Source: Agrococcus beijingensis (lineage in GTDB: Bacteria; Actinomycetota; Actinomycetes; Actinomycetales; Microbacteriaceae). Taken from it: a stretch of DNA of 30,710 bases. The position numbers and the translations under genes were made by a program. The stretch is taken from positions 2,332,284 to 2,362,993 of the forward strand of contig NZ_CP132360.1 in NCBI RefSeq assembly GCF_030758955.1, given 5' to 3'. Shown here piece after piece: positions 9,442-21,800 of the stretch. Position 1 is the first letter of the stretch. Each line of letters opens with the position of its first letter. A model generated the notes under the pieces. It had not been told where the DNA came from, did not search any database, and saw only the letters and a program-made list of their open reading frames with translations.

Positions 9442-11466
<2,025 letters not shown>

Positions 11467-11468
11467 CT

Positions 11469-11566
11469 ATGCCACCGGCCCCGCGCGACCGGCCCGGCGC
11501 CACCGGCCCCGCGCGACCGGCCCGGCGCGACCGGCCCCGCGCGACCGGCCCTGCGCGACCCGCACC
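11469..11566. repeat. 14-bp-period GC-rich tandem array upstream of prpC
   Basis: About seven units of 14 bases, consensus GCGCGACCGGCCCC with variants, start at 11483, 11497, 11511, 11525, 11539 and 11553, with a partial unit before 11483. The array fills most of the 216-base divergent gap between prpC and the SRPBCC gene. It would be expected to sit over or near both promoters. Apart from it and the two ribosome binding sites I see nothing in this gap. Confidence 0.9.
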
Positions 11567-11642
11567 CGGCCACCGGCCGCAGGCCGCAGGTTGACGGCGC
11601 ACCCTGCGCCGGTCAGGCTCGAGGCAGACCCTGGAGGCACCC

Positions 11643-13667: not shown

Positions 13668-13913
13668 ATGAAGACTGCGATCTCGATCCCTGACCGCGAC
13701 TTCGAGCGCTTCGAGCGCATCGCCGCGCGGCACGGCATGAATCGCTCCGAGTTCTATCGGCGCGCTGGTCGCCGCCTCGCCGACGAGCTCGAGGGCGAGG
13801 CCGAGCTGACCGCGCTCGCGAACGCCGTCATCGCTCGCGTCGGCCAGCCGGCCGCAGACGGCCTGCTCCTGCGGGAGTCGGAGCGCATCATCGGCGAGGG
13901 CACCGACTGGTGA
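13668..13913 (+). CDS. MazE-like antitoxin (ribbon-helix-helix type)
   Basis: 81-residue DNA-binding antitoxin. The N-terminus MKTAISIPDRDFERFERIAA with HGMNRSEFYRRAG is the beta strand plus two helices of a ribbon-helix-helix (CopG/MazE-like) domain. The C-terminal half is acidic and should wrap the toxin. ATG at 13668 follows the -10 box so closely that no ribosome binding site fits, consistent with leaderless translation. It overlaps the toxin start by four bases (GTGA, 13910-13913), the usual antitoxin-first arrangement. Confidence 0.87.
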   Translation: MKTAISIPDRDFERFERIAARHGMNRSEFYRRAGRRLADELEGEAELTALANAVIARVGQPAADGLLLRESERIIGEGTDW

Positions 13914-14254
13914 TCGCGCACGGAGATGTCGTCTGGGTCGACTTCGGGTCGCCGCGCGGCTCAGAGCCGGCGAAGCGGCGGCCGGCTGTCGTCATGCAGG
14001 AGGACTGGCTGCTCGCCTCGCAGATCGCCACCGTGCTCGTCGTGCCGTTGACCTCGAACCTCGCGCTGGAGGCCTTCCCCGGCAACGTGCTCGTGCCGGC
14101 CCATGCCTCCGGTCTCGACAAGGACTCCGTCGCGGTCGTGTCGCAGCTCGGCGCGGTCAGCCGCGAGTTCCTGGAGCCGTACCCCGTGGGGCGCGTCCCG
14201 GCCTACGTCCTCTCGAAGATGGCCGACGGCATCCGCCTGGTCACGGGCATCTGA
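13910..14254 (+). CDS. MazF/PemK family endoribonuclease toxin
   Basis: 114-residue MazF-fold toxin expected to cleave single-stranded RNA at a short motif. The family pattern is clear: GDVVWVDFGSPRGSEPAKRRPAVVMQ (quoted in pieces: GDVVWVDFG, KRRPAVVMQ) with Arg23-Arg24-Pro25. Then come VVPLTSN with Thr48-Ser49, and the closing LSKMADGIRLVTG. All expected catalytic-region residues appear present, so the pair looks intact. GTG start overlaps the antitoxin stop. It converges on the ene-reductase with an 18-base gap. Confidence 0.92.
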   Translation: MIAHGDVVWVDFGSPRGSEPAKRRPAVVMQEDWLLASQIATVLVVPLTSNLALEAFPGNVLVPAHASGLDKDSVAVVSQLGAVSREFLEPYPVGRVPAYVLSKMADGIRLVTGI

Positions 14255-14272: not shown

Positions 14273-15355
14273 TCAACGGTGCTGGCGCGCCCGGGTGTAC
14301 TGGTCGGGCCACACCGACGCAGCCGCCTCGCCGTCGAGCTCGGCCTCGGCCGCCAGCGCCCAGTGCGGATTGCGCAGCCAGGCGCGCGCGAGCATGACCG
14401 CGTCGGCGTCGCCCTCGGCGAGCAGCTGCTCGGCGTGCGCCGGCTCGTCGATCAGCCCGACCGCGTTGACCGGCAGGCCGGTCGCGGCGCGCACCTCGCG
14501 CGCGAAGTGCACCTGGTAGCCGGGCCCCAGCGGGATCTCCTGCCGCGGGTCGAGCCCACCGCTCGACAGGTCGAACCAGTCGGCGCCCGCCTCGGCCGCG
14601 ACCCGCACGTGCTCGATGGTGCGGTCGACCTCGATGCCGCCGTCGACCCAGTCGGATGCGCTGAGTCGCACCATGAGGGCGGCCTCCGGTGCCGCTGCCC
14701 TCACCGCCGCGACGACCTGCCGCAGCAGCTCGACGCGCAGTCCGCCGGCGTCGGCGCCCCACTCGTCGTCGCGCTGGTTGGTGAGCGGCGAGAGGAACTG
14801 GTGCAGCAGGTAGCCGTGGGCGGCGTGCAGCTCGATCGCCTCGAAGCCGGCGTCGACCGCGCGGCGGGCGGCCGCCGCGAACAGGCTCGGCAGCTGCGCG
14901 ACCTCGTCGCTCTCCAACGCGCGGGGCGCGGAGAACCGGCCGAACGCATCCGCCCCCGCAGCCACGCTCTGCCAGCCGCCCTCGTCGGCGGGCGCGGTGC
15001 CGTGGCCCGACCAGGGGCGGCGCGCGGAGGCCTTGCGGCCGGCGTGGGCGAGCTGCATGGCGGCGACGGCGCCGTGGGCGCGGATGCGCTCGGCGATCAC
15101 CGCCCACGCCTCGGCCTGCTCGTCGTTCCAGATGCCGGTGTCCTGCGGCGAGATGCGGCCGATCGGCTCGACCGCCGCCGCCTCGGTCATCACGAGGCCC
15201 GCGCCGCCGCGCGCGAACGACGCGAGGTGCTCGAGGTGCCACTGACCGGGGATGCCGTCCTGCCGCTCGCAGGAGTACTGGCACATGGGCGAGACCCAGG
15301 CGCGGTTGCGCGCCTCGACCCCGCCCACCTGCACGGGCGCGAAGAGCAGGCTCAA
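14273..15355 (-). CDS. NADH:flavin oxidoreductase, Old Yellow Enzyme (YqjM type)
   Basis: 360-residue FMN-dependent ene-reductase with a TIM barrel. YqjM-class marks include SPMCQYS with Cys25 (the redox-tuning cysteine), MQLAHAGRKAS (99-109), the substrate pair His176/His179 in IELHAAHGYLLHQFLSP, TNQRDDEWG, and a C-terminal ARAWLRNPHW. It reduces activated C=C bonds next to carbonyl or carboxyl groups, using NAD(P)H. The start is TTG at 15355, where homology begins (SLLFAPVQVGG); it overlaps the prpB stop by four bases (TTGA, 15352-15355). It is the last gene of the six-gene tct-prp operon, which suggests a role with an unsaturated acid in that pathway (inference). Confidence 0.9.
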   Translation of the reverse strand: MSLLFAPVQVGGVEARNRAWVSPMCQYSCERQDGIPGQWHLEHLASFARGGAGLVMTEAAAVEPIGRISPQDTGIWNDEQAEAWAVIAERIRAHGAVAAMQLAHAGRKASARRPWSGHGTAPADEGGWQSVAAGADAFGRFSAPRALESDEVAQLPSLFAAAARRAVDAGFEAIELHAAHGYLLHQFLSPLTNQRDDEWGADAGGLRVELLRQVVAAVRAAAPEAALMVRLSASDWVDGGIEVDRTIEHVRVAAEAGADWFDLSSGGLDPRQEIPLGPGYQVHFAREVRAATGLPVNAVGLIDEPAHAEQLLAEGDADAVMLARAWLRNPHWALAAEAELDGEAAASVWPDQYTRARQHR

Positions 15356-16302
15356 GACGCGTCGCCTCCGGTGGATCCCTCTCCGGTCGTGCCGCCCGCG
15401 AAGCCGCTCGGCACCTCGAAGTCGAACACACCCTCGTCGAACGCGTTGTATGCGGCGTAGTCGTTCAGCTCGTACAGGCGGGCGCGCGTCTGCATGCGCG
15501 GCACCGCGTCGTCGAGCGTGCCCGTCTCGTTCAGCAGCCCAAGCTCGCGCTCGATCGCGCCCATCGCGATGCGCAGCAGCGACACCGGGTGGATGGCGAT
15601 GTTCACGCCCACGTCCTGCAGCTGCTGGTGCGTGAAGAGCGCGCTCTTGCCGAACTCGGTCATGTTGGCGAGGATCGGCACGTCGACCGCCGCGCGGATG
15701 GCCGCGAACTCCTCGAGCGTGGCCATCGCCTCGGGGAAGATCGCGTCGGCGCCGGCCGCCTCGAGCGCCTTCGCGCGGTCGACGGCGGCGCCGAGGCCCT
15801 GCACGCCGCGGATGTCGGTGCGCGCCATGATCAGCAGGTCGCTGTCGCGGCGGGCCCGCACTGCGGCGGCGATGCGCTGCACGGCGAGGTCGAGCGAGAC
15901 GACCTCCTTGCCGTCGAGGTGGCCGCAGCGCTTGGGGTTGACCTGATCCTCGAGGTGCAGGCCCGAGACGCCGGCGTCCTCGAGCTCGTGCACGGCCCGC
16001 GCCACGTTCATCGCCTCGCCGAAGCCGGTGTCGGCGTCGATGAGGGTCGGCAGGTCGGTCATCCGCGAGATCTGGCGGCCGCGCTCGGCGACCTCCGACA
16101 GCGTCGTCAGCCCGATGTCGGGCAGCCCCAGCTCGGCCGCCATCACGGCGCCCGAGATGTAGGCGCCCTCGAAGCCCAGCTGCTCGATGAGCGGCGCGGT
16201 GAGCGGCGTGAAGGCGCCCGGGAAGCGCTGGATGGTGCCCGAGGCGAGGCCCGCCCGCAGCGCCTTCCGCTTCTCGTTCGGCGTGACGCGGGTCGACAGC
16301 AC
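15352..16302 (-). CDS. prpB: Methylisocitrate lyase
   Basis: 316-residue member of the isocitrate lyase / PEP mutase superfamily. The active-site loop is PKRCGHLDGK with Cys126, the metal-binding residues are Asp89 and Asp91 (LIDADTGFGEA) and Glu118 (HLEDQ), and ARTDIRG and NMTEFGKSALFT are as in PrpB. It cleaves 2-methylisocitrate to pyruvate and succinate. The C-terminus has about 20 extra Gly/Ser/Thr residues. GTG start at 16302 shares one base with the prpD stop (TAGTG). The Lys-Arg-Cys-Gly-His signature argues for lyase rather than phosphonate-type chemistry. Confidence 0.93.
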   Translation of the reverse strand: MLSTRVTPNEKRKALRAGLASGTIQRFPGAFTPLTAPLIEQLGFEGAYISGAVMAAELGLPDIGLTTLSEVAERGRQISRMTDLPTLIDADTGFGEAMNVARAVHELEDAGVSGLHLEDQVNPKRCGHLDGKEVVSLDLAVQRIAAAVRARRDSDLLIMARTDIRGVQGLGAAVDRAKALEAAGADAIFPEAMATLEEFAAIRAAVDVPILANMTEFGKSALFTHQQLQDVGVNIAIHPVSLLRIAMGAIERELGLLNETGTLDDAVPRMQTRARLYELNDYAAYNAFDEGVFDFEVPSGFAGGTTGEGSTGGDAS

Positions 16303-17807
16303 TAGAAGAGGCCCTTCGTGGTGCCGCCGTCGACCGTGCCCGCGGGCGCGACGACGTTGAGCTGGCGCACCTCGTCGGCGGTGAGCTCCGGCAGGCGGTC
16401 GACGAGGGCGAGGAAGCGGTCGATCTCGGCGTCGCCGATGATGCCCTGCGCGAGCGTGCGGAGCTTGTGCTCGTACTCCGCCCGGCCGAACGGGCGCGCC
16501 CCGGCCGGGTGCGCATCCGCCACCGAGATCTCGTCCTCGATCGTCTCGCCCGAGGTGAGGGTGACGACGATGCGGCCGCCGAACGCCTTCTTGTCGGGGT
16601 CGGGGTCGTGGTAGCGCTCGGTCCACACCGGGTCCTCGAGGGTGGTGATCCTGTTCCACAGCGCGACGGTGTCGGGCCGCTGCGCGCGCTCGGGCGCGTA
16701 GGAGTCGACGTGGTGCCAGCCGCCGTCCTGCAGCGCGACCGCGACGATGTACGGGATCGAGTGGTCGAGCGTCTCGCGGCTCGCGGTCGGGTCGTACTTC
16801 TGCGGGTCGTTGGCACCCGAGCCGATCACGAAGTGGGTGTGGTGGCTGGTGTGCAACACGATCGAGACGACGTTCTCGGGGTCGCGCAGCTCGGGGCGCT
16901 CGGCCGAGAGCTTGCGGGCCAGGTCGATCCAGGCCTGCGCCTGGTACTCGGCCGAGTGCTCCTTCGTGTAGGTGTCGAGGATGCCGCGCTTGGGCTCGCC
17001 CGGTGCGGGCAGCGGCACCTGGTAGGAGCCCTCCCAGCCGTCGAGCAGCCAGGCGATGACGCCGTCCTCGCCCTCGTAGATCGGCACGGGGCTCGTCTGG
17101 CCGCGCATGGCGCGGTCGACCGACTCGACCGCCATCTTGCCGGCGAAGGCGGGGGCGTGCGCCTTCCAGGTGGAGATCTCGCCCTTGCGCGACTGGCGCG
17201 TGGCGGTGGTGGTGTGGAGCGCCTGGCCGACGGCCTGGAAGATCGTCTCGGCGTCGAGGCCGAGCATGGTGCCGATGCCGGCGGCGGCCGAGGGGCCGAG
17301 GTGGGCGACGTGGTCGATCTTGTGCTTGTGCAGCGAGATGGCGCGCACCAGGTCGACCTGGATCTCGTAGCCGGTGGCGATGCCGCGCACCAGCGCGCGC
17401 CCGTCGCAGCCGACGTGCTGGGCGACGGCGAGGATCGGGGGGATGTTGTCGCCCGGGTGGGAGTACTCGGCCGCCAGGAAGGTGTCGTGGTAGTCGAGCT
17501 CGCGCACGGCGACGCCGTTGGCCCACGCCGCCCACTCGGGGCTGACGCGGTCGCCGATGCCGAAGACGGCGGCGCCCGGCTGGAAGGGGTGGCGCTGCGC
17601 CTGCTCGCGGGCCGAGACGACCGGCGGGCGGTTGAGGCTCGCGATCGCGACCGAGGCGTTGTCGATGATGCGGTTCGCGATCATCTCGACGACCTCGGCC
17701 TCGACCTCGACGGGGTCGACCGCGACCTGCGCGATCTTCCAGGCGAGCTGCTCTTCGCGGGGCAGGTTCTCGGCGCTCTTGCGGGCGCGGACCTCGTGCT
17801 GGATCAT
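16302..17807 (-). CDS. prpD: MmgE/PrpD family 2-methylcitrate dehydratase
   Basis: 501-residue protein of the MmgE/PrpD family, whose founding member dehydrates 2-methylcitrate to 2-methyl-cis-aconitate without an iron-sulfur cluster. Conserved stretches are [15 protein letters not shown] (97-110), [16 protein letters not shown] (115-130), the [19 protein letters not shown] helix, the [14 protein letters not shown] loop, and [16 protein letters not shown]. Length is normal for PrpD. Start ATG 17807 has AAGGAGA upstream and overlaps the tctA stop (ATGA, 17804-17807). The family also includes aconitate- and tartrate-type dehydratases, so substrate is inferred from the adjacent prpB. Confidence 0.9.
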
Positions 17808-19441
17808 GGCTTCTCCTTGGTTGCGGGGGTCTGCTGGGCGGACGCGGGCTGGGGTTCGGTGAGCTGGATGGGGTGCTCGCGGTCGTCGCGCTCGTCGCGC
17901 TGGTCGCGGTGGTCGTCGGGCACCGTCTCCAGCATGGTGGTTCTCGTGAGGCGGCGCCGGTTCAGGGTGCGGATGAGCAGCGGCAGGGTGAGCACGACCG
18001 CCAGCGTGACGTAGACGACCACCGAGAACGGCGAGGCGAGCAGGGTGAGCGGGTCGCCCGCCGAGATGTCGAGCGCGCGGCGCAGCTGCAGCTCGGCGAG
18101 CGGGCCGAGGATGGCGCCGACGACGACGGGGGCGATCGGGAAGCCGAAGCGCCGCAGCAGGTAGCCGACGACGCCGAAGACGATCAGCAGCAGCACGTCG
18201 AACGACGCGCCGTTGACGGCGTAGGCCCCCAGCAGCGCGAAGGTCGCGATGCCCGCGAACAGGTAGGGCTTCGGGATCTTGAGCAGCTTCACCCAGACCC
18301 CGACCAGCGGCAGGTTGAGCACGAGCAGCATCAGGTTGCCGATCAGCAGGCTCGCGATGAGTCCCCACACCAGGTCGGGCTCGTTGCGCAGCAGCGCCGG
18401 GCCGGGCTGCAGCCCGTACTGCTGGAACGCGACCAGGATGATCGCCGCGGTCGCCGAGGTCGGGATGCCGAGGGTCAGCAGCGGCACCATCGTGCCGGCG
18501 GCGTTCGCGTTGTTGGCGGCCTCGGGGCCTGCGACGCCCTCGATGGCGCCGTTGCCGAATTCCTTGCGCCGCGCGCCCTTCGCGAGCCGCTTCTCGAGCG
18601 AGTACGACAGGAACGTGGGGATCTCGCTGCCGCCGGCGGGGATCACGCCGAGCGGGAAGCCGATCGCGGTGCCGCGCAGCCAGGGCTTCCACGACCGGCG
18701 CAGGTCGGTGCGCGTCATCCAGCGCTGGCCCTTGATCGACTCGACCGCGTACTTCGACGTGGTCTGGTGCGCGACGACGTAGAGCACCTCGCCGATGGCG
18801 AAGAGCGCGACGATGAGCACGACCGTGTCGATGCCGTCGAGCAGTCGCGGCATGCCGAAGGTCAGGCGATCCTGGCCGGACTGGAAGTCGATGCCGACGA
18901 GGCCGAGCGTGAGGCCGAGGGCGAGCGACGTCAGGCCGCGCAGCGGCGAGCCGCCGACGAGTGCGCCGACCGTCAGGAAGGCCACGACCATGAGCGCGAA
19001 GAAGTCGCGCGCGCCCAGCTGCACCGCGATGTCGACGATGCCCGGCGCGAACAGCGCCACGAGCACCGTGGCGATCGTGCCGGCGATGAACGAGCCGATC
19101 GCCGCAGTCGCGAGCGCCGCGGCGCCGCGGCCCGCGCGTGCCATCTTGTTGCCGTCGATGGCGGCGACGATCGAGCCGGACTCGCCGGGAGTCTTGAGCA
19201 GGATCGAGGTCGTCGATCCGCCGTACATGGCGCCGTAGTAGATGCCGGCGAAGAGGATGAAGGCGCTCGCGACCTCCATGCCGTAGGTCATCGGCAGGAG
19301 CAGCGCGATGGTGAGCGCCGGGCCGATGCCCGGCAGGACGCCGATCATCGTGCCGACGAATGCGCCGAGCAGCGCGAAGAGCAGGTTCTGGAGCGTGAAC
19401 GCGACCGTGAAGCCGTGGACGAGTCCTTCGATGCCGTCCAT
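17804..19441 (-). CDS. tctA: Tripartite tricarboxylate transporter, large permease TctA
   Basis: 545-residue polytopic permease, about 12 membrane helices, the main translocating subunit of a TTT-family secondary transporter. Family marks are [16 protein letters not shown] (35-50), the [19 protein letters not shown] segment (74-91), [18 protein letters not shown], and [12 protein letters not shown]. The C-terminal 40 or so residues form a highly charged tail rich in Asp/Arg, then Pro/Gln/Lys, likely cytoplasmic and not a usual part of TctA. ATG at 19441 overlaps the tctB stop by one base (TGATG). Confidence 0.94.
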
Positions 19442-20010
19442 CACAGGATTCCCGTCAGGATGCCCGCCGGCAGCTGGATGCGCAGCAGCAGGGTGAAGAG
19501 GTAGAAGACGCCGAGGGAGAGCACGACGGCGATGCCGATGGTGAGGAGCCAGCGCTTGGCGCCGGTGGCGAAGGCGACCGCGACGAAGGTGATGGCCGCG
19601 GCGATCGGGTAGCCGAGCACGTCGACTGTGAGCGCGAACAGCACGAGCGCGGCGGTGGCGAGCAGCAGCTGCCACCAATGGAGGCGGCTGGCGTCGACGT
19701 CGCCCTCTGCGGCATCCGGATGCCCGAGCCTGCCGCGCAGGATCTGCACGATGAGGAGGATGCCCAGCCCGGTGGTCAGGCCGCCGACGATCATCGGGAA
19801 CTGACCCGCGCCGAGTCCGGAGGCGGAGGTCGAGGCAGGCTGCGACAGCCCGTCGAGGATCGTGACGATGCCGATGGCGACGACGGCGATGCCGAGCAGC
19901 AGCTCGGGCCAGCGCCGCTTGGCTCCTGCCTCCGGCACGCGGGTCGCCCCGGCGCCGGGGGCCGCGATCGCGGCTCCCGACTCCGGGGCGACAGTGGGGC
20001 GGTTCGTCAC
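19441..20010 (-). CDS. tctB: Tripartite tricarboxylate transporter, small subunit TctB
   Basis: 189-residue small membrane subunit. After a 30-residue Ala/Pro/Gly-rich start there are four hydrophobic helices: [19 protein letters not shown], a second around [20 protein letters not shown], a third in [20 protein letters not shown], and a last pair in the C-terminal third ([20 protein letters not shown]). The [10 protein letters not shown] segment is typical of TctB. GTG start at 20010 overlaps the tctC stop by four bases (GTGA, 20007-20010). Works with TctA in the membrane and TctC outside. Confidence 0.88.
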
Positions 20011-21026
20011 TGGACGACGAGGCCCAGCTGCGAGAGCACACCCTCGACGCGGGTGTTCTCCTCGTCGAGCCACGCGTCGAACTCGTCGCCGGCGAGGAAC
20101 AGGTCGGCCCAGTCGTTCGTCTCGAGCTGCTCGGCCCAGGCGTCCGAGCCGGCGAGCTCGGTCACGACGTCGACGTACTGCTGGCGCAGCTCGTCGTCGA
20201 TGCCGCCCGGCGCCATGATCGAGCGCCAGTTGGCGAACTCGAGGTCGGGGTGACCGATGTCGGCGACGCTCTGCACCTCGATGCCCTCGACCGGCTCGCT
20301 GCTCGAGAGCAGCAGCGGCCGCAGCTCCTCCTCGAGGATCTGGTCGCGGAACTCGCCGATGCCGGCGATGCCGGCGCTGACCTGGTTGCCGAGCAGGGCG
20401 GTGGTCGCCTCGCCGCCGCCCGAGAACGGCACGTAGTTGAGCTGGCTGGGCTCGATGTCGTACGCCTCGGCCAGGAGGCCCAGGAACACGTGGTCGGCGC
20501 TGCCGGCCGAGCCGCCCGCGATCGGCACGCCGGCGGGGTCCTCGGCGATCGCGGCCAGCAGGTCCTCGATCGTCTGGAACTCCGAAGCCGCGGGCACCAC
20601 GATGATCTCCGCCTCGCCGATCAGGCGCGCGATGGGCGTGACGTCGTCGAGGCTCACGCCCGTGTCGTTCGTCAGCACGCCGCTCATCATCGCGAGGCCG
20701 GAGGCCATGAGCACGCCCTCCTGGCCGGGGTTGGCCGCGACCTGCGCGAGCGCGACGGTGCCCGAGGCGCCGGGCACGTTCGTGACGGTGATCGACTCGG
20801 CGAACTCACCGCCCTCGAGGGCGGTGCCCAGGGCGCGTGCGGTCTGGTCCCAGCCCGAGCCGGGGGCGGCCGGGGCGAGGATCTCCATGCGACCCAGCGC
20901 CTGCACCTCTGCGGCCGCCGTCTCGCCCGCGTCCGACGCCTGCGGCGCCTGGTTCGCGGTCGTGCATCCGACCAGTGCGATCGCCACTGCCGCGATCATC
21001 GCCGCGGACTTCACCTGCTGCTTCAC
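20007..21026 (-). CDS. tctC: Tripartite tricarboxylate transporter substrate-binding lipoprotein TctC
   Basis: 339-residue extracytoplasmic binding protein (Bug/TctC family). A lipoprotein signal ends at Cys21 (IALVGC), so in this Gram-positive-type cell it would be membrane-tethered. Family features include [35 protein letters not shown], a VGxA-like [15 protein letters not shown] strand, [20 protein letters not shown] and [20 protein letters not shown] chose GTG 21026 over GTG 21032 because GGGAG sits five bases before it, whereas it runs straight into the earlier GTG. It is the first gene of the operon, behind the GntR operator. Confidence 0.93.
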
Positions 21027-21084
21027 GTGCACTCCCTCGTGTTCGTGTCCTGCGCGGCCTCAGCGCCGCACCCTTGAAGCATAC

Positions 21085-21102
21085 TTGCATACAGGTATCC
21101 AA
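21085..21102. promoter_or_regulatory. GntR/FCD-type operator between tctC and gntR
   Basis: TTGCATACAGGTATCCAA: half-sites TTGCATAC and GTATCCAA flank AG and match as an inverted repeat at 7 of 8 positions, in the style of FadR-subfamily operators. A further GCATAC half-site lies just upstream (21079-21084). For gntR, TTGAAG (21074-21079) and TATCCA (21096-21101) with a 16-base spacer make a possible promoter covered by the palindrome. For the tct operon, TATGCT read on the minus strand (21083-21078) is a possible -10. Confidence 0.8.
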
Positions 21103-21131
21103 CTGCGCGAGCCCTGTGCCATCATGGCGGC

Positions 21132-21800
21132 ATGGAAGGCAGCGGGCGAGGGCGACGCGACAGCCGGTCCCCCGCCTACGAGCGGCTGCGGGCCCTCATC
21201 GTCGATCGCACGCTCTCCCCCGGCTCGCTGCTCTCGGAGCCCGAGCTCGCCGACCAGCTCGGCGTCTCTCGCACGCCTGTGCGCGAGGCGCTCCGCACGC
21301 TGACGGCCGAGGGCCTGGCGGTGAAGCTCAGCTCGAACCGCACCATCGTCGCGCCCGTGTCGATCGAGGAGCTGCGCCACGTCTACGACGTGCGCTCGCG
21401 CCTCGAGGGGCTGATCGCCGCCGATGCCGCACAGCGGGTCACGCCCGCCGACGAGCAGTACCTGCTGCGCCAGGTGTCGCTCATGGAGCGCCTGCGCGAC
21501 GACGACGAGGAGGTCGTGCGCATCGGCGCCGACTTCCACGACCACATCCTGGCGATGAGCGGCAACGAGCTGGCCGGCAACCTGCTGCACATCGTGCGCG
21601 GGCACGTCGACCGCTATCGGGCGCTCACGACCCGCGAGCCGGGCCGCAGCTCCGACGCGGTCGACGAGCACCGGCGCGTCTGCGAGGCTGTGCTCTCGGG
21701 CGACCCGGCGCTGGCCGAGCGCACCATGCGAGAGCACATCGACGCTGCTCGCGGCATCGCGATCGGCCTCACCCCCGAGCCCGACGACGCCGACGCCTGA
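21132..21800 (+). CDS. GntR family regulator, FadR/FCD subfamily
   Basis: 222-residue regulator. The winged helix-turn-helix (about residues 14-75) includes SEPELADQLGVSRTPVREAL and RTLTAEGLAV. The C-terminal FCD ligand domain (about 85-210) has the metal/acid-binding pattern: DFHDHI (FHxxI type), DEHRRVCEAV and MREHIDAA supply the Asp and His ligands. FCD domains commonly bind carboxylic acids, which fits control of the divergent tricarboxylate operon; it probably also controls itself through 21085-21102. ATG at 21132. It converges on the sortase gene across 27 bases. Confidence 0.92.
   Translation: MEGSGRGRRDSRSPAYERLRALIVDRTLSPGSLLSEPELADQLGVSRTPVREALRTLTAEGLAVKLSSNRTIVAPVSIEELRHVYDVRSRLEGLIAADAAQRVTPADEQYLLRQVSLMERLRDDDEEVVRIGADFHDHILAMSGNELAGNLLHIVRGHVDRYRALTTREPGRSSDAVDEHRRVCEAVLSGDPALAERTMREHIDAARGIAIGLTPEPDDADA

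Follow-up and report, generated by a model that had tools for sequence, protein, structure and literature searches.

The stretch of DNA analyzed here, hereafter the window, is 30,710 nucleotides long and belongs to contig NZ_CP132360.1 of Agrococcus beijingensis (positions 2,332,284 to 2,362,993), the single contig of a 2.89-Mb genome that is 99.56% complete. It carries, all in the same direction, the genes of a tripartite tricarboxylate transporter (TTT), those of two enzymes of the methylcitrate cycle, and that of an ene-reductase, with a gntR gene diverging from them; in the following, tctCBA together with the divergent gntR is referred to as the cassette. The arrangement suggests a unit for the uptake and cleavage of a methylcitrate-type tricarboxylate. 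Its features, with the profile matches that support them, are as follows.

21132 to 21800, plus strand: gntR, divergent regulator gene of the FCD (FadR) type (Pfam GntR, 62.9 bits; FCD, 94.4 bits; tree of 92 GntRs)
21080 to 21100, between gntR and tctC: candidate GntR operator, an imperfect inverted repeat around TACCTGTATGCAAGT (minus strand, 21083 to 21097)
20007 to 21026, minus strand: tctC, solute-binding protein (PF03401, 68.9 bits), with the GTG at 21026 as the preferred start and 21032 as a possible one
19441 to 20010, minus strand: tctB, small membrane subunit (PF07331, 73.4 bits)
17804 to 19441, minus strand: tctA, large membrane subunit (PF01970, 503.8 bits)
16302 to 17807, minus strand: prpD, 2-methylcitrate dehydratase (MmgE_PrpD_N, 250 bits; NF042438, 857.8 bits)
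15352 to 16302, minus strand: prpB, 2-methylisocitrate lyase with KRCGH (PEP_mutase, 148 bits; TIGR02317, 371.6 bits)
14273 to 15355, minus strand: ene-reductase of the Old Yellow Enzyme (OYE) family, probably cotranscribed (PF00724, Oxidored_FMN, 221 bits)
10266 to 11573, minus strand: prpC, 2-methylcitrate synthase (NF010636, 610.4 bits, cut-off 479)

Pfam matches back all seven genes from gntR to the ene-reductase gene; in particular, the GntR winged helix-turn-helix together with the FCD domain places the regulator in the FCD (FadR) subfamily, and the three TTT components are all present and in order. An earlier reading made from the sequence alone (the sequence-only reading) had described six genes joined by five overlaps, and recomputed frames, together with the Pfam matches, confirmed both: tctC overlaps tctB by 4 bases (GTGA), tctB overlaps tctA by 1 (TGATG; 4 instead if tctA starts at GTG), tctA overlaps prpD by 4 (ATGA), prpD overlaps prpB by 1 (TAGTG), and prpB overlaps the ene-reductase gene by 4 (TTGA). 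The overlaps had also been taken to make the six genes one translational unit; we rejected such a unit as a conserved feature, since only two cassette-bearing Agrococcus genomes out of seven (the window's own, G000, and G010) have the full chain of five.

PrpD and PrpB are, as far as their sequences tell, of the ordinary methylcitrate kind. PrpD is the sole match to MmgE_PrpD_N in the genome (E ≤ 0.001). Its 857.8 bits against NF042438, a model for PrpD of the high-GC Gram-positive type, fall short of the cut-off of 950; since four PrpDs from loci with adjoining prpB and prpC score from 841 to 880 bits, the shortfall gives no hint of a new substrate, and the low score was discarded as a sign of one. 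PrpB lies above the cut-off for methylisocitrate lyase (TIGR02317, 371.6 against 354.4 bits) and far under those for isocitrate lyase, and its KRCGH motif aligns with those of solved lyases, including 1mum.

The synthase, which the sequence-only reading had reported as missing, is in fact encoded in the same window. Two citrate synthases turned up when the genome was searched for such enzymes; one of them is the product of prpC and passes the NCBI model NF010636 for bifunctional 2-methylcitrate/citrate synthase. The gene lies 2.8 kb downstream of the unit on the same strand, with a likely start at ATG 11426 by comparison with relatives, and the interval that separates it from the ene-reductase gene holds a MazEF-like pair on the opposite (plus) strand plus an acyl-CoA dehydrogenase gene. 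The usual actinobacterial arrangement, with prpC in one operon with prpDB, does not occur in the window.

We compared this layout with PrpD loci of a named collection (the best 80 of at least 579 confirmed; flanks up to 10 kb, shorter at contig ends), from which the window's own genome and its very close relatives may be missing. The best-matching PrpD among these 80 is that of A. jejuensis (81%). prpB comes after prpD in all 80 and prpC follows in 75; of the five loci without prpC, three (L028, L029, and L075) end at a contig edge and two (L043 and L060) gave no prpC match. In 70 of the 80, a gntR gene lies in the same direction as prpD and within 800 bases of it. Thus, the window resembles the actinobacterial GntR-prpD-prpB-prpC operon in the order and family of prpD and prpB, but it has a GntR of another lineage, divergently oriented, tctCBA in front, and prpC 2.8 kb off with a promoter-like motif of its own.

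A PrpD match was present in 188 plasmid records, of which 15 were listed and 8 read; in these eight loci prpD, prpC, and prpB occur together with no TTT gene, and plasmid-borne tct-prp clusters were therefore rejected. As observations apart, a TRAP transporter of the TAXI type lies close to the prp genes in one plasmid locus (L281), and in another (L280, from a Paracoccus yeei plasmid) tcuB and tcuA, for tricarballylate use, adjoin prpB of a prpDCB operon, so that methylcitrate and tricarboxylate genes meet. Furthermore, a contig labelled Vibrio cholerae strain 35D (L073) has a prp operon of the actinobacterial type (PrpD 77%; the GntR groups with Arthrobacter), probably a contamination, and in L160 (genome G018) the PrpD match is split in two near its end, possibly by a frameshift or a sequencing error.

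Within the genus, a PrpD match was found in each of the 24 Agrococcus genomes sampled, and the tctCBA cassette adjoins prpD in 7 of them: besides the window's own genome, these are G003, G010, G014, G015, G017, and G020, with an adjoining tctA at 88 to 94% identity. tctA and prpD overlap by 4 bases in five of the seven loci and are separated by 34 bases in G017 and 40 in G014. The gene order put forward by the sequence-only reading is found again in part, with the cassette before prpDB in these seven genomes, and it is not found among the best 80 PrpD loci, none of which has a TctA, TctB, or TctC match. On this sequence evidence the coupling of uptake and cleavage is real and unusual, and among the genomes covered it has so far turned up only in some members of a single genus. 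Moreover, the cassette sits between a sortase gene and prpD in the window and in G014, and in G005, G018, G021, and G023 fewer than 100 bases separate the end of an upstream sortase match from the prpD match.

The bases that precede prpD differ with the presence of the cassette. Among the 19 Agrococcus genomes with an orthologue of the ene-reductase, TAGG[C/G]T-N7-ATG occurs at prpD in 9 of the 12 that are free of the cassette, the exceptions being G001 (with a classic-type GntR upstream), G002, and G009, and in none of the 7 that bear it; in all seven of the latter, prpD has a Shine-Dalgarno-like AGGAGA or AGGAGAAG instead. A TAGG[C/G]T placed seven bases before the start codon has the shape of a leaderless promoter, and such motifs are generally linked to leaderless starts in actinobacteria. 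These differences bear on the possibility that the cassette came to lie between the sortase gene and prpD without any functional link to the latter, which would agree with its patchy distribution; however, the absence of the leaderless-type motif, with a Shine-Dalgarno-like sequence instead, in 7 of 7 loci, and the fact that kin of the regulator adjoin both prpD and tctC elsewhere, make such a neutral placement very unlikely.

prpC, in turn, appears to be regulated separately, by its own promoter. Upstream of the window's prpC, about 45 bases from the likely start, we found the −10-like motif TAGAGT. For 14 of the 19 genomes the retrieved region contained prpC, always 3.3 to 6.7 kb from prpB, with or without the cassette; for the remaining five the gene was absent from the region read, which in several was limited by a contig end or by the choice of region. 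The upstream motif in these 14 loci is TAGAGT in 10 and TAGGGT in 2, the place being only partly in view for G014 and G001. By eye, an inverted repeat of approximately CGTTCG[C/T]C[C/G]GGCGAACGA can be seen upstream of prpC in seven loci (L144, L148, L151, L153, L154, L157, and L158) and is a candidate prpC operator; in the window this palindrome gives one weak match, a level reached by 39 of 100 shuffles, and G+C-rich repeats are found there instead.

The relatives of the regulator connect the two halves of the unit. In a survey of 396 genomes from the order (7 candidates scored per genome, E ≤ 1e−40), kin of the window's GntR outside the genus were found in three genomes, two of them upstream of prpD-prpB-prpC and one divergent from TctC (59% identical), and a further prpD-linked relative is present in Cellulosimicrobium funkei (L070). 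When 92 GntRs were placed in a tree, the window type grouped with these out-of-genus kin, the prp GntR of Cellulosimicrobium included, and separately from 76 classic prp GntRs. Four more sequences, two of them encoded near other transporters, sit next to this group on long branches, and the tree program warns that long-branch joins may be false. This kinship suggests a tie between the tct and the prp genes.

Furthermore, the motif CTG[C/T]ATGCA[A/G] is present in the upstream gap of all eight loci compared, that is, before tctC in the seven cassette loci and before prpD in G009, where the GntR gene faces prpD, and it mostly lies inside an inverted repeat, which passed a one-mismatch script test in five of the eight (G000, G009, G010, G014, and G015). 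Upstream of gntR-prpD, the prp-linked kin have TTGTATACAA, which contains the palindromic GT...AC core with 2-base spacing of the PrpR operator (PMC4494728; this and the other PMC articles are cited from partial text), whereas TACCTGTATGCAAGT of the window keeps the GT on one side only. At three mismatches in the window alone, the operator pattern gives 2 matches, a number reached by 35 of 100 shuffles and thus not specific; at two mismatches in the whole genome, it gives 9 matches against 3 for the reversed pattern, and the sole perfect one is that in the gap between gntR and tctC. A palindromic second copy of the motif, at G000:C1:2096817 (CATCTGCATGCAGATC region; L287/L263), was placed by eye within a menaquinone-type coding sequence. 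Work on Pseudomonas aeruginosa argues for 2-methylcitrate as the inducer of its GntR-type PrpR (PMC9765439), and the window GntR most likely responds to the transported substrate.

As for that substrate, the genome contains two further TctA and TctC matches, in the sets L205 and L206, which narrow the choice. L205 (G000:C1:2736001-2756000) consists of TctCBA with a divergent kinase of the CitA/DcuS family and its regulator, and could be a citrate importer; the kinase scores best to DcuS/MalK (297 bits, cut-off 520) and the regulator to DcuR (94 bits, cut-off 262), with DpiB/DpiA (citrate) next. In L206 (G000:C1:1734001-1754000), TctC and TctA, with no TctB detected in the set, are followed by TcuA, the tricarballylate dehydrogenase (562 bits, cut-off 369), and a GntR, and this set is likely a unit for tricarballylate uptake and oxidation. 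TctAs about 60 to 65% identical to that of the window are present in many members of Agrococcus. With citrate (or a C4 acid) and tricarballylate assigned to L205 and L206, the simplest assumption for the window set is a further tricarboxylate on which PrpD and PrpB act, and by this elimination, which is only as good as the two assignments, its substrate would most simply be 2-methylcitrate. The three TctCs of the genome are 40 to 44% identical and have in common the loop motifs PG[SG]GWDQT, GGSAG, and SGGGEA, none of which was shown by the five Bug-type chains aligned. In a protein search with TctC (7,996 candidates sharing most words scored, 120 listed), the nearest named matches listed were those of Agrococcus sp. 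HG114 and A. carbonis, followed by an actinobacterial group at about 53 to 65%; on plasmids, TctC matched 428 records, every one below 60% identity.

The same transporters bear on the possibility that the unit imports citrate or tricarballylate, with PrpD as an extra aconitase. One NCBIfam PrpD model is indeed named bifunctional 2-methylcitrate dehydratase/aconitate hydratase, and citrate is the commonest TTT substrate (PMC5812351). However, the genome has separate transporters beside the CitA/DcuS-family sensor and beside TcuA, and PrpB scores as a methylisocitrate lyase, far under the isocitrate lyase cut-offs, so that we regard this possibility as quite improbable.

Taken together, we propose that tctCBA-prpDB forms one unit, controlled by the divergent GntR, that takes up and cleaves 2-methylcitrate or a closely related C7 acid, with the synthase kept separate, a proposal to which we give about as much credence as doubt. 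That the tct genes and prpDB are arranged as a single unit, with gntR diverging from it, as the sequence-only reading had it, is borne out by gene order, signals, and kinship, and a methylcitrate-type tricarboxylate, which it had also favored, stands as the best substrate candidate judging from sequence. Since an importer and a GntR gene come directly before the cleavage enzymes, the organism may take methylcitrate from outside. The reaction steps of the methylcitrate cycle are established. In the proposed mechanism, GntR and its operator would control the genes for import, dehydration, and cleavage together; TctC would bind 2-methylcitrate (or a close C7 relative) outside the cell and TctA and TctB would carry it inward; PrpD would dehydrate it, with rehydration by PrpD or an aconitase; and PrpB would split the resulting 2-methylisocitrate into pyruvate and succinate. 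prpC, under its own promoter, would feed the same PrpD and PrpB from internal propionyl-CoA. The stronger form of the proposal, an operon dedicated to the import and catabolism of external 2-methylcitrate or 2-methylisocitrate in a cell where making and cleaving the compound are separately controlled, we hold with slightly more doubt than belief.

Several observations weigh against this proposal. With prpC nearby, the cell can itself make 2-methylcitrate. TTT proteins with other ligands are known and the substrates of the family are diverse (PMC5812351). The nearest TctCBA sets outside the genus (G451 and G252; L200 and L276) are followed by a gene for an MFS transporter, and no prp match was found in the 20 kb read around them. 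In G009, the same GntR and prpDB occur without intervening tct genes and without an adjacent importer. The prpD-linked kin of the GntR (L070, G535, and G576) may belong to one genus and hence represent one event, and the inverted repeat failed the one-mismatch test in G003 and G017, while G020, where the contig ends within gntR, was outside the scan. The citrate role of L205 is insecure, since its kinase and regulator are under every NCBIfam cut-off and best to C4-dicarboxylate sensors. Finally, the cassette is patchy, with 4 changes on the metG and prpDB trees alike, 3 and 4 of them forced. The trees of metG, prpDB, tctCBA, GntR, and the ene-reductase disagree in part and do not decide between gain and loss of the cassette; in that of metG, G004 falls outside the group given by prpDB, and the basal-type G006, G007, and G013 form an open fork with the rest.

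The first three of these points also favor the alternative that the transporter imports some other carboxylate, for instance one whose breakdown yields propionyl-CoA, with prpDB coexpressed to handle the latter through the ordinary cycle. We consider this rather unlikely: prpC, needed at the outset of such a route, lies outside the unit and carries a promoter-like motif of its own; the six genes include neither a CoA ligase nor a transferase; and the window's TctC has its loop motifs in common with those of L205 and L206.

The role of the ene-reductase can be weighed independently of the substrate. Membership in the OYE family was confirmed by the Oxidored_FMN domain and by solved relatives of the YqjM/XenA kind, the best solved chains being 7o0t, 8pun, and the chromate reductase 3hf3, with XenA and YqjM next. 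An orthologue at 67% identity or more is present in 19 of the 24 Agrococcus genomes; four others have only matches at 51% or less, and G022 has none at the cut-off. In 16 of the 18 evaluable loci of these 19 genomes, the gene comes directly after prpB (gap from −4 to 188), with the 4-base overlap in 11; the two genes are 1.1 kb apart in G004 and 6.6 kb apart in G016, and the locus of G017 ends at a contig edge. G002 holds both a GntR-prpD-prpB-prpC operon and a prpD-prpB-OYE locus (L148 and L165).

The sequence-only reading had suggested that the ene-reductase may reduce an unsaturated intermediate or substrate. This adjacency favors such a pathway role, in which the enzyme would reduce an unsaturated tricarboxylate (2-methylaconitate) or a toxic by-product. 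Outside the genus, however, its conservation with the operon fails. A match (E ≤ 1e−60) is found in 122 of 150 Microbacteriaceae genomes, and outside Agrococcus it is the only one in 107 of the 119 genomes that have any; among the 99 out-of-genus genomes with both genes, it never lies within 10 kb of prpD (the two are on one contig in 49, where they come no closer than 19 kb). Moreover, it is not next to prpB in any of the best 80 PrpD loci, L014 having an OYE (44%) 3.2 kb past prpC, and the nearest solved relatives are, by name, general ene-reductases. No report that combines the methylcitrate cycle with an Old Yellow Enzyme was found in the open-licence PubMed Central literature. We therefore regard a pathway role as improbable; the enzyme is probably a general one that became a neighbor of prpB once and would ride as a passenger in the transcript, with a separate job.

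Each part of the unit has counterparts in known systems, and it is the placing of tctCBA and an FCD-type GntR ahead of an ordinary prpDB pair that is unusual. The TctCBA of Corynebacterium glutamicum, which transports citrate under two-component control (Brocker 2009, as cited in PMC5812351), shares the genes tctC-tctB-tctA and has its possible counterpart in this genome in L205; different from it, the window has a GntR and no two-component system, and catabolic enzymes follow tctA. L206 is similar to the window in that TctC and TctA precede the first enzyme of a tricarboxylate route, with a GntR, but there TcuA oxidizes tricarballylate, whereas the window has PrpD and PrpB. The PrpR of P. aeruginosa (PA0797) is an FCD-type GntR and prp repressor with 2-methylcitrate as its likely inducer; unlike what we propose here, it controls prpC too, and the available text mentions no transporter in its operon (PMC9765439). 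An itaconate/methylsuccinate cluster likewise places an MmgE/PrpD protein in a small-acid route, in the part of PMC12290011 at hand as the isomerase of a CoA-dependent route, whereas the window's PrpD scores as a methylcitrate dehydratase.

If the proposed function is correct, 2-methylcitrate would be a scavenged nutrient, beyond its being an internal intermediate of propionate breakdown, and the transporter would be the first known for it as far as our searches of the open-licence PubMed Central literature can show, in which we found nothing on methylcitrate uptake, transport, or growth, nor on Agrococcus with methylcitrate; the word "methylcitrate" is also absent from the available text of PMC5812351. 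Neighboring organisms might release 2-methylcitrate under propionate overload and so provide a source for import. The large TTT family would gain a defined C7 substrate, and the GntR would have a directly testable inducer and operator; until PMC9765439, according to the introduction of that paper, no GntR-type regulator of the methylcitrate cycle had been experimentally characterized. Agrococcus itself offers a natural experiment, with close relatives that carry the cassette and others that do not.

The pair between the ene-reductase and acyl-CoA dehydrogenase genes is of the MazEF/PemK-like toxin-antitoxin kind (window positions 13668 to 14254, plus strand; PemK_toxin, 71.7 bits), and pairs 86 to 88% identical occupy the same place only in G015 and G009 among the Agrococcus loci fetched.

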